NCBI GenBank assembly: GCA_013289985.1
Contig: JABCYW010000061.1
Span: 1-32,500, forward strand
From: Betaproteobacteria bacterium
GTDB lineage: Bacteria; Pseudomonadota; Gammaproteobacteria; Burkholderiales; Burkholderiaceae_C
Length of the DNA stretch: 32,500 nt
Reading direction: 5' to 3'
Part shown: in pieces, positions 1 through 15,663 of the stretch
How the letters are laid out: every line of letters begins with the position of its first letter
Position numbering within the stretch: the stretch's first letter is position 1
The notes under the pieces: generated by a model
What the model was told of the DNA's origin: nothing
What the model saw: only the letters and a program-made list of their open reading frames with translations
Database searches by the model: none
Program-made: the position numbers and the translations under genes

Positions 1-18
1 CTGAGCGGAGCGAGAAGC

Positions 19-933
19 ATGAATGCGTTGTTCGACCAGGACGCGATGCGCCGCCGCATCGAGCGCGAGCTCGTGGACGGCTACGACGAAGAGATCGAGA
101 TGGAGATGGAGGACCGGCTCGTGGCCGACCCGCTGGACGCCAGCGGCGAGGACGCGGCCGGGCGGGTGCGCTACTTCCGCGAGCTGTTCCGCCTGCAGGG
201 CGAGCTCGTGAAGCTGCAGGACTGGGTGGCCAGCACGCGCCAGAAGGTGGTGATCCTGTTCGAGGGCCGCGACGCCGCCGGCAAGGGCGGCGTGATCAAG
301 CGCATCACGCAGCGCCTGAACCCGCGCGTGTGCCGCACCGTCGCCCTGCCCGCCCCCAACGACCGCGAACGCACCCAGTGGTACTTCCAGCGTTACGCGG
401 CCCACCTGCCGGCCGCCGGCGAGATCGTGCTGTTCGACCGCAGCTGGTACAACCGCGCCGGCGTCGAGCGCGTGATGGGCTTCTGCAGCGACGACGAGTA
501 CGAGGAGTTCTTCCGCTCCGTGCCGGCCTTCGAGAGCATGCTGCAGCGCTCGGGCATCAAGCTGATCAAGTACTGGTTCTCGATCACCGACGACGAACAG
601 GAACTGCGCTTCCTGGGCCGCATCCACGACCCACTCAAGCAATGGAAGCTGAGCCCGATGGACCTGGAGAGCCGCCGCCGCTGGGAGGAGTACACCAAGG
701 CCAAGGAGGTGATGCTGGAGCGCACCCACAGCGCGGAGTCGCCGTGGTGGGTGGTGCAGGCCGTCGACAAGAAGCTGGCGCGCCTGAACTGCATCCACCA
801 CCTGCTGGGCCAGTTCGACTACACCGAGGTGGAGCATCCGGCGGTGCACCTGCCGGAACGCCTGCGCCACGAGCACTACTCACGGCAGGCGGTGCCGGAG
901 GAGATGATGGTGCCGGACTTCTACGGGCAGTAG
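19..933 (+). CDS. ppk2: Polyphosphate kinase 2 (PPK2), 304 aa
   Basis: Transfers phosphate between inorganic polyphosphate and nucleoside diphosphates (known for the family) in the cytoplasm. The single PPK2 domain spans roughly residues 50-280. The Walker A loop GRDAAGKGG starts at G83 with Lys89, and the Walker B-like FDRSWYNR (139-146) carries Asp140. The downstream WKLSPMDLESRRRW stretch is typical of one-domain class I PPK2 proteins such as Pseudomonas PA0141. The ATG has an upstream GGAG about eight bases away. A TGA at bases 2-4 may be the stop of a preceding gene. It faces pstS across a strong hairpin, so two phosphate-related genes end back to back. The family call is very secure; whether it prefers ADP or GDP, or makes ATP or polyphosphate in vivo, cannot be read from sequence. 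Confidence 0.95.
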   Translation: MNALFDQDAMRRRIERELVDGYDEEIEMEMEDRLVADPLDASGEDAAGRVRYFRELFRLQGELVKLQDWVASTRQKVVILFEGRDAAGKGGVIKRITQRLNPRVCRTVALPAPNDRERTQWYFQRYAAHLPAAGEIVLFDRSWYNRAGVERVMGFCSDDEYEEFFRSVPAFESMLQRSGIKLIKYWFSITDDEQELRFLGRIHDPLKQWKLSPMDLESRRRWEEYTKAKEVMLERTHSAESPWWVVQAVDKKLARLNCIHHLLGQFDYTEVEHPAVHLPERLRHEHYSRQAVPEEMMVPDFYGQ

Positions 934-13270: not shown

Positions 13271-14578
13271 TCACGACGAGCCGGCGCCGCCGCCGCCGAC
13301 GCGCGCCGGCGACCACGTGCCTGGCTGCGGCCAGGCGCCGAACTCGCGCATGGCCGCCGCCTCGACCCTGTCGCCCTTGTCGATGCGCGCCCGCCGCTGC
13401 CCGAACTTGCCCGCGCGCGCCAGCACGCACACCGGGCATTCGATGATGCCGATCTTCTCTTCGTGGGCCAGGTGCACCACGCCGCACCTGGCGCAGTGGC
13501 CCAGGTGGGTGTCGGCGCCTTCGCGCATGGGCGTGAACACGTCGCGCAGCATGCGGCTGAGCGACACGCCGCAGTCGGCGTCGTAGGTGCAGGCGTAGTA
13601 GTCGTACGCCCACACCATGGCCTCGAAGGCCTCGACGCCGGCGTCCACCAGGCGGCGCTGCAGGCAGAAGATGGCCGTGGCGCTGAGGCGGCGATGCGCG
13701 CTGCCCCACAGGTCGCGGTGGTCGCGCGTGCGGTCGCGCGGCGCGCCCTTGTCGCGCCTGGGCTTCGGATTGAGCGTCTCGGCGATGCCGCGCAACTGCG
13801 CCGCACGCACATCGCTGGTGGCCAGCATGCGTTCCTCCACCTCGGTGGGCCGCATCTGGTGGCGCAGCATGGCCAGGATCAGGCTGGACGTGCCGGGCAT
13901 CAGGAAACTGGCGGGCGGCCGGCCGGAGCGCTTGCTGACGGGCGTGCGCTCGGCCACGCGGTAGGCGGCGCTTTCCTGCTGCACGGCATGGCGGATCAGC
14001 GCGAATTCCTGCTCGCAGCACTGGGTGAGCGCCAGCAGGCCGCGCAGGCTCGACTCGACGCCGTCATCGTCGGCGCGCAGCAGGCGGTCGATGATGGCGT
14101 CGCTCAGGCGCGGCACCGCCAGCAGCGTGCCGGGGTTGCCGCCCCACTCCAGGAACGCGAAGGCGGGCAGCTCCTGCAGCGCGCGGATGACCTCCCGGTC
14201 GGTGATGTCGCACACCAGCGCCGCGCTGGCCGGATCGTCGGCGTAGCGCACGAAGGTGGCCAGCGCCAGCCGGTTGATGCGCTTGACGAGCGGGCGCCAC
14301 ATCTCGTGGTCGGGGGTGAGCATGGGACGGTGCTCCGGCAGGCGCCGCACCAGGCGCTCGGTGAGCGCCGGCCGCCACAGCGCCACGGGCGTGGTGGCGA
14401 GATCGTCGAGCTGGGCATCGGGCATCGCGGCCAGCCGCATCGCCACGCCCAGCGGCACGCCGAACAGTTCCACGGCGTGCTGCGGGTTTCGCCGCGACAC
14501 CTCCGCGAGACCTTCGATCAGTTCCTCGTTGAGCGTCTTCTGGTCGCTGGGGCCCTTGGCCATGCCGGTCTGCGTCAT
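13271..14578 (-). CDS. FlhD/FlhC-like fused transcriptional regulator, 435 aa
   Basis: The C-terminal third resembles the flagellar master regulator FlhC: helical core LSATAIFCLQRRLVDAGVEA, then SRMLRDVFTPM, then a zinc site C362-x2-C365-x15-C381-x2-C384 (HCARCG ... ECPVC) followed by a basic tail, as in FlhC. The N-terminal region (NEELIEGLAEVSRRNPQHAV, VAMRLAAMPDAQLDDLA) is FlhD-like. A second similar block (LALATFVRYADDPASAALVC, REVIRALQELPAFAFLEW) suggests FlhD-FlhD-FlhC in one chain. FlhC alone is about 190 aa, so 435 aa is far longer. Start: the ATG at 14578 has AGAGGG seven bases upstream; an ATG at 14611 lacks one. It diverges from a BetR response regulator. The FlhC-like end is fairly sure, the FlhD-like halves tentative. 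Confidence 0.7.
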   Translation of the reverse strand: MTQTGMAKGPSDQKTLNEELIEGLAEVSRRNPQHAVELFGVPLGVAMRLAAMPDAQLDDLATTPVALWRPALTERLVRRLPEHRPMLTPDHEMWRPLVKRINRLALATFVRYADDPASAALVCDITDREVIRALQELPAFAFLEWGGNPGTLLAVPRLSDAIIDRLLRADDDGVESSLRGLLALTQCCEQEFALIRHAVQQESAAYRVAERTPVSKRSGRPPASFLMPGTSSLILAMLRHQMRPTEVEERMLATSDVRAAQLRGIAETLNPKPRRDKGAPRDRTRDHRDLWGSAHRRLSATAIFCLQRRLVDAGVEAFEAMVWAYDYYACTYDADCGVSLSRMLRDVFTPMREGADTHLGHCARCGVVHLAHEEKIGIIECPVCVLARAGKFGQRRARIDKGDRVEAAAMREFGAWPQPGTWSPARVGGGGAGSS

Positions 14579-14670
14579 CTCTTTGCCCTCTCTGTGCCTT
14601 GTATGGTGCAAGTGATGGTCACCAACCCACCATTTTCCATCCTGCTTGCATCAACCTTGCTGTTAATGGC

Positions 14671-14750
14671 TTTTTTGTTGGCTTGATGTGAATGTGACAC
14701 ACAAGTTTCTGCCAATCAATCCGATTTTTGTGGGCTTTTTGATGCGATTG
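14671..14750. promoter_or_regulatory. AT-rich divergent control region with an imperfect direct repeat
   Basis: The 209-base gap between the FlhDC-like gene and the response regulator is strikingly AT-rich. Two related copies, TTTTTTGTTGGCTTGATGTG (from 14671) and ATTTTTGTGGGCTTTTTGATGCGA (14724-14747, read in part), lie about 53 bases apart centre to centre, roughly five helical turns. They could be binding sites for either product. A TTGAGG at 14748-14753 has no convincing -10 partner. Confidence 0.4.
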
Positions 14751-14787
14751 AGGTTAAGCTCGATCGATCCCCTAGCTTGGCGACGAG

Positions 14788-15663
14788 ATGAACGACACCC
14801 CGCATGCGCGCACGACACTCGAGCTCGATGGCCCGGCCGAACCCGCGCTGAGCGTGGACGTGCGCCGCTTCCTGATGTCGCACGGCGTCAAGGAGCACAA
14901 CCACGCCTCGGAGATCGCCCGCATCATCAATGTCGACCGCTCGCAGTCGTATCGGCGGCTGAAGGGCGACGTGGCGTGGAGCCACACCGACCTGCGTGCC
15001 ATCGCCCGCCACTTCGGCGCGTCGGACGACCGCCTGCTCCCGCAGGACGACCTCGCGCGCATGGCAAACCAGGGCCCGGAGGCGGTACCCGCCGTGATCC
15101 GCGTGGCGCACTTGCCGCCCACCGGCCTGCTGGTGCCGGGGATCGAGCTGGGCGCGGGCGACACCAGCGATCTCGTGGCCATCCGCGTCGGCGCCGGCTG
15201 GGAGATCCACGTCAACGGCGAAGAGCCCTTCGGCGCCCGCCGCCATGCCATCGAGGCCCTCACCGTGCGCAGCCACCCGCACCTGCAGGTGGCGCTGCTG
15301 GAGGACGACACGCGCGCCGCCGAGGCGCTGGTGGAGGCGTTCCGCCCGCTGGGCATCGTGGCCACGCCGTTCGTGGACGGCGCCTCGCTGCGCACGGCCA
15401 TCGCGAACCTGCGCTTCGACGCCTACGTCCTCGACTGGCTGCTGGCCGACGGCACGGCGGCCCCCGTCGTCGAGGCGATCCGCCAGCACCGGTCGCACAT
15501 CCCCATCGTGGTGGTCACGGGCGCGCTGATGGCCGACTCGGAGATGGAGCAGCGCCTGCAGGCGCTCTCCGCGCAGTGGAACTTCTCCACCCTGGACAAG
15601 CCGGTGCGGCCGATGAACCTGGCCAACGCGATCAAGCAGCTGGTGACGGCCTCGCGCGCGTGA
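14788..15663 (+). CDS. BetR-domain response regulator (N-terminal HTH, C-terminal receiver), 291 aa
   Basis: The architecture is reversed compared with most response regulators. Residues about 20-85 form a BetR-type HTH (VRRFLMSHGVKEHNHASEIA, RSQSYRRLKGDVAWS). A middle beta-rich linker follows (about 100-165), and the receiver domain is at about 172-290. Receiver residues are the acidic pair EDD near 179, phospho-acceptor D216 (YVLDWLLADG), T244 (VVVTGAL) and K271 (TLDKPVRP), all intact. The receiver probably gates DNA binding by the HTH. No kinase is adjacent; the hybrid kinase 4 kb upstream is a possible but unproven partner. It shares a divergent control region with the FlhD/FlhC-like gene, so mutual regulation is a reasonable hypothesis. 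Confidence 0.85.
   Translation: MNDTPHARTTLELDGPAEPALSVDVRRFLMSHGVKEHNHASEIARIINVDRSQSYRRLKGDVAWSHTDLRAIARHFGASDDRLLPQDDLARMANQGPEAVPAVIRVAHLPPTGLLVPGIELGAGDTSDLVAIRVGAGWEIHVNGEEPFGARRHAIEALTVRSHPHLQVALLEDDTRAAEALVEAFRPLGIVATPFVDGASLRTAIANLRFDAYVLDWLLADGTAAPVVEAIRQHRSHIPIVVVTGALMADSEMEQRLQALSAQWNFSTLDKPVRPMNLANAIKQLVTASRA

Follow-up and report, generated by a model that had tools for sequence, protein, structure and literature searches.

FlhDC-family activators of flagella and of conjugative-element spread are complexes of separate subunits, and the complex described, in the available parts of PMC4605294, is FlhD4C2. The window analysed here, 32,500 nucleotides of a contig (JABCYW010000061.1) of a Betaproteobacteria bacterium, contains a gene which the initial annotation read as a single-chain version, with one or two FlhD-like blocks ahead of an FlhC core. 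The locus raises the questions of whether both families are represented in one chain, whether FlhD is present twice, and what such a protein may control. The features concerned are as follows.

13271..14578, minus strand: whole gene, 435 aa, with an FlhD domain, a probable second FlhD domain, a linker, an FlhC domain and a variable tail (from the open reading frame, homologs, profiles and pN/pS)
14333..14551, minus strand: first FlhD-like domain (D1), residues 10-82 (hhalign Prob 95.6, E 1.2e-8, window 1-90)
14033..14287, minus strand: possible second FlhD-like domain (D2), residues 98-182 (hhalign Prob 66.9, E 5.3e-5, window 88-190)
13889..14032, minus strand: linker, residues 183-230, helical in a low-confidence model (profile windows at noise)
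13406..13888, minus strand: FlhC-like domain, residues 231 to about 391 (hhalign match of 145 columns over residues 231-389, Prob 97.9, E 6.4e-13)
13427..13495, minus strand: four-cysteine zinc-type site, C362, C365, C381 and C384 (in 5 of 5 homologs)
14579..14787, no strand: intergenic region, in which a stretch about 110 columns long is conserved, judged by eye in a four-genome alignment
14788..15663, plus strand: divergent neighbour (BetR-REC), 291 aa, with a BetR domain (PF08667) and a response-regulator receiver (PF00072)

Conservation and domain content of the gene

The open reading frame has the extent initially given and lies on the minus strand, with its ATG at 14578; the plus strand is also open there. 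The protein was found in all three other genomes of the genus examined (4 of 60 relatives searched match, the genome itself included), one homolog locus of the genus being that of Scleromatobacter humisilvae (Burkholderiales, Sphaerotilaceae). A 399-genome sample of the order returned the genome itself as its only match, and a 399-genome sample of the family returned 16 matches, 5 of them full-length and 11 to the FlhC part only. The fifth full-length homolog (genome G129, locus L164; start codon unsure) belongs to another genus and has 36% identity; this homolog and the genus-wide presence show that the frame is not an accident of GC-rich sequence. The three domains are under purifying selection (pN 0.013-0.051 versus pS 0.22-0.39), and from residue 397 onward the tail shows no constraint (pN 0.36-0.37). 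Standard family models are nearly silent on the protein: the Pfam and NCBIfam scans yielded nothing above cut-off (below it, DUF3693 at E 0.04 and PRK00420 at E 0.05), Pfam's own FlhC (PF05280) and FlhD (PF05247) models do not report it, and sequence searches of the PDB found no match.

The C-terminal FlhC identity proposed at the outset was borne out by profile comparison. The first narrow FlhC profile matched residues 279-392 with E 6e-9, and with that first profile the FlhC part scored 57.6, above all 200 shuffles (maximum 21.1). With a diverse FlhC set E was 4e-8, improving to the listed 6.4e-13 when the 36% homolog was added, and E 2e-11 with the whole chain. The four cysteines lie where they were first placed, in a C-X2-C-X15-C-X2-C pattern shared by all five homologs; canonical FlhC rows have X16 in eight of nine and X15 in one, and across 28 FlhC-family rows the spacing varies, with the plain pattern absent from three (SetC, its copy at L108 and an Azospirillum FlhC). 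These comparisons support an FlhC domain with a predicted zinc-type site. The AF2 model has a pLDDT of about 30 in this part, and its Foldseek search named no FlhC among the 50 matches listed. Because the fusion protein sits on a very long branch of the FlhC tree (2.5 changes per column) and its placement is unsure, no origin is claimed for it.

The first FlhD-like block was likewise recovered by profile search, with E 6.6e-7 in the whole chain for the widest FlhD profile. Against the initial narrow profile, 9 of 200 shuffles scored as high as D1; with successively wider profiles none did (0/400, 0/400, 0/400, 0/600, 0/500), nor did any of 800 decoys beat it with the diverse profile. In an earlier decoy set two of 500 beat D1, one being the FlhD of L048 and the other lying within the FlhD locus L050. 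A profile lacking the AcaD-type and Ppsy rows still gave E 8e-7 for window 1-90, and blastp aligned D1 with SetD at 32% identity over 68 residues (E 0.025). The AF2 model of the chain, made from an input alignment that contained no FlhD, has a mean pLDDT of 39 and is best predicted at residues 21-60. Foldseek matched this low-confidence model to the FlhD chains 8j56_A (prob 0.93, 59 columns, rmsd 2.3; matched residues not printed), 1g8e_A (prob 0.60) and 2avu_A (prob 0.60, rmsd 1.6), with E-values of 1.5-5.3, all above 1; other FlhDC chains had prob 0.30-0.33, and the remaining rows among the matches listed 0.12 or less. The matched region is presumed to be D1, since this block contains the best-predicted stretch. 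The sequence evidence thus supports an FlhD domain at residues 10-82, and with it the presence of predicted FlhD and FlhC domains in a single chain.

Comparison with other FlhDC-family systems

According to Pfam, the genome also encodes one canonical FlhC and one FlhD elsewhere, about 60 bases apart. The fusion protein resembles flagellar FlhD and FlhC (2avu, 8j56) in having an FlhD domain and an FlhC domain with zinc-type cysteines, but it is one chain, is strongly diverged and, as the initial annotation had noted, has no flagellar genes among its annotated neighbours. The nearest known system is AcaD/AcaC of the IncA/C (IncC) plasmids, in which AcaC is FlhC-like and AcaD has two FlhD domains: each half of the 202-aa AcaD matches a single-domain FlhD/SetD profile (Prob 97.2 and 95.1). 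Among the D proteins compared, D1 has its best match in the second half of AcaD (38% over 39 residues). Unlike the fusion protein, AcaD and AcaC are two separate proteins and are encoded on a conjugative plasmid; AcaD and the N-terminal half of the fusion protein give no co-linear alignment beyond noise (Prob 2.5-4.7). The two Aca proteins co-purify, and transfer needs both, according to the accessible portion of PMC4207636.

The halves of the Pseudomonas plasmid D proteins also match FlhD (Prob 70.5 and 41.9), as do those of a D protein encoded directly upstream of its FlhC in the same bacterial family (L075; Prob 89.5 and 12.8). From these tandem matches, two FlhD domains beside a separate FlhC do exist. 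Self-comparison of AcaD detected no internal repeat, and aligning it with the Pseudomonas D proteins gave no significant match. The tandem-FlhD nature of AcaD, which bears on a well-studied plasmid regulator, is not mentioned in the available parts of PMC4207636, PMC4605294 and PMC10954446, and no paper title on fused FlhD-FlhC or tandem FlhD was found in a literature search covering mostly journals outside subscription. AcaD-type proteins of IncC-like plasmids that are annotated as hypothetical (L137:833-1441, L132:870-1451, L138:901-1503 and L139:901-1506) are likewise tandem FlhD proteins.

SetD of SXT/R391, which D1 resembles, has a single FlhD domain, and the separate SetC lacks the plain CXXC...CXXC; both belong to a mobile element. 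PMC4344509, available in part, proposes that SetCD helps to recruit polymerase. Two Burkholderiales loci (L170 and L188) resemble the present one in having an FlhDC-family fusion beside a BetR-REC gene, but there FlhC is fused with FlhC and TraI_2 is nearby: a single FlhD gene precedes a 375-aa FlhC-FlhC tandem (L170:1082-2206, L188:6306-7430), with BetR-REC ahead of the pair and TraI_2 behind it. In BisDC of ICEclc, BisC resembles FlhC; the accessible text of PMC7423338 reports no FlhD domain detected in BisD, and by that description the system is set apart. A Methylobacter plasmid gene annotated as DUF4325 (L130:2671-3279), situated between two FlhC-family genes, is partly FlhD-like (E 6e-3 in tblastn with SetD).

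A possible second FlhD domain

Residues 98-182 could be a second FlhD domain, or the chain could consist of one FlhD, an unrelated helical middle and FlhC, in which case two chains would give D2C2, and the protein would either work unlike D4C2 or need free FlhD. With the early, narrow FlhD profiles, D2 was noise (160/200, 267/400 and 153/400 shuffles at or above its score, and 125/500 decoys in an early decoy test). With diverse profiles no shuffle reached its score (0/400, 0/600, 0/500, 0/1000), and one of 800 decoys beat it, then none of 800 with the widest profile; the decoys were drawn from open frames in general and not from annotated proteins, and the stepwise widening of the FlhD profile favours D2. 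In the whole chain D2 has E 4.4e-4 and Prob 33.7. Nine control windows over residues 170-425 scored below 10 against the FlhD profile, and windows 170-240 and 170-235, covering the linker, were at noise level against both FlhD and FlhC profiles.

The aligned D2 block scores 27.2 and single D2 sequences 20.6-23.6, except that the D2 of L164 alone scores 10.3, which is noise; false positives from kinase-like proteins (L069, L070, L071) reach 21.6-23.1. Those three loci stood in one early iterated FlhD profile, were left out of profiles from the 267/400-shuffle test onward, and lie outside both 800-decoy sets, which dropped every ORF matched by FlhD or FlhC profiles. Compared directly with AcaD, D2 gave no match beyond E of about 0.1. 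A model of residues 1-175 (pLDDT 41) yielded no FlhD among the 50 of 254 Foldseek matches listed, those being noise only; both low-confidence AF2 models show the N-terminal half as rich in helices.

Since the D2 match varies with the profile used and lies only slightly above known false positives in score, it is graded suggestive: D2 is likely, from sequence comparison, to be a second FlhD domain, and a D-D-C architecture is likely. Of the D-D-C fusion first proposed, D1 and C are thus borne out and D2 is suggestive. The noise obtained with the first profiles and from L164, the proximity of the false positives and the Foldseek result speak for an unrelated middle, but the results with diverse FlhD, the silent control windows and the precedent of tandem FlhD in AcaD make that reading the less probable one, at something under one chance in three.

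The kinase-like ORFs of L069-L071 have weak Pfam FlhD matches (E 2.8e-4 to 9.6e-4) that look false; by eye they are EnvZ-like kinases, and they were rejected as FlhD.

Genomic context and proposed role

The gene does not sit alone, as had been stated, but is head-to-head with the BetR-REC gene, an arrangement found in the four genus genomes and in G129; relatives of BetR-REC also adjoin FlhD/FlhC in L170 and L188. On the BetR-REC side, gene order is kept across the genus loci to their ends. On the opposite side three genes are kept in two of the three other genus genomes, and the third contig ends there; L077 has about 2 kb extra on this side, and the next two genes outward were not detected there. 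A BetR-REC search (E <1e-20) recovered nine genomes, four of which have FlhD/FlhC domains beside the gene (G000, G003, G129, G073); the remaining five have none within the 14.7-16 kb read. BetR-REC is therefore no specific marker of FlhDC.

The favoured reading, with a probability of roughly 0.55, is a one-chain transcription activator of the FlhDC family that carries D1, a probable D2, the linker and C in that order. If D2 is real, two D-D-C chains would supply the parts of one FlhD4C2 ring. By analogy with FlhDC, and as proposed for SetCD, the fusion protein would sit on DNA next to a promoter and assist RNA polymerase. The flagellar genes, which are served by a flhDC of their own in the same genome, are probably not among its targets, and the divergent BetR/response-regulator gene may be its partner, probably as its switch. 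Assembly, DNA binding, activation, targets and the neighbour's role are all inferred. A natural single chain of this kind, with the 2:1 ratio contained in it should D2 prove real, would open subunit order and stoichiometry to direct testing.

Two other roles were weighed. The chain might modulate flagella by forming mixed complexes with FlhD or FlhC of the canonical pair, and the presence of that pair, together with a gene for a methyl-accepting chemotaxis protein elsewhere on the contig (29802-31574, about 15 kb from the fusion gene), could be read that way; this is improbable, given annotated neighbours without a flagellar gene and a position in the tree far from canonical FlhC. Somewhat less improbable, though still doubtful, is a transfer activator of a conjugative element, the role that SetCD and AcaCD have in the sources available in part; it might serve such an element to this day, or be the remnant of one, retained for a different task. 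TraI_2 has a relaxase role. It is described in Pfam as a putative helicase, and it occurs near the diverged FlhD/FlhC genes in eight of nine regions read in this Burkholderiales family (L187-L194 and L170), two of which (L170, L188) have a BetR-REC relative; this suggests that those genes encode activators of conjugative elements. The nine regions were chosen by hand (6 of 11 FlhC-only genomes, namely G1125, G1047, G1127, G999, G1007 and G1061, plus G093, G018 and G073), and TraI_2 was called by Pfam in L170 and by similarity to that of L170 in the other seven. The Pfam model also matches 3 of 14 control genomes, so TraI_2 is no proof of conjugation. Against the transfer-activator reading, TraI_2 was found in none of the four genus genomes nor in G129 (65% complete), and gene order on the BetR-REC side is conserved within the genus. 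A scenario extending the one-chain activator reading would have the covalent D-D-C fix the 2:1 ratio of D4C2 and derive, with its BetR-REC switch, from an element-borne transfer activator now governing a chromosomal, non-flagellar and non-conjugative regulon; it is offered tentatively, as distinctly less probable than the activator reading itself.

Divergent promoters for the fusion and BetR-REC genes would presumably lie in the region between them (14579-14787). The conserved intergenic stretch carries TGTG-N3-CACA in the four genomes.
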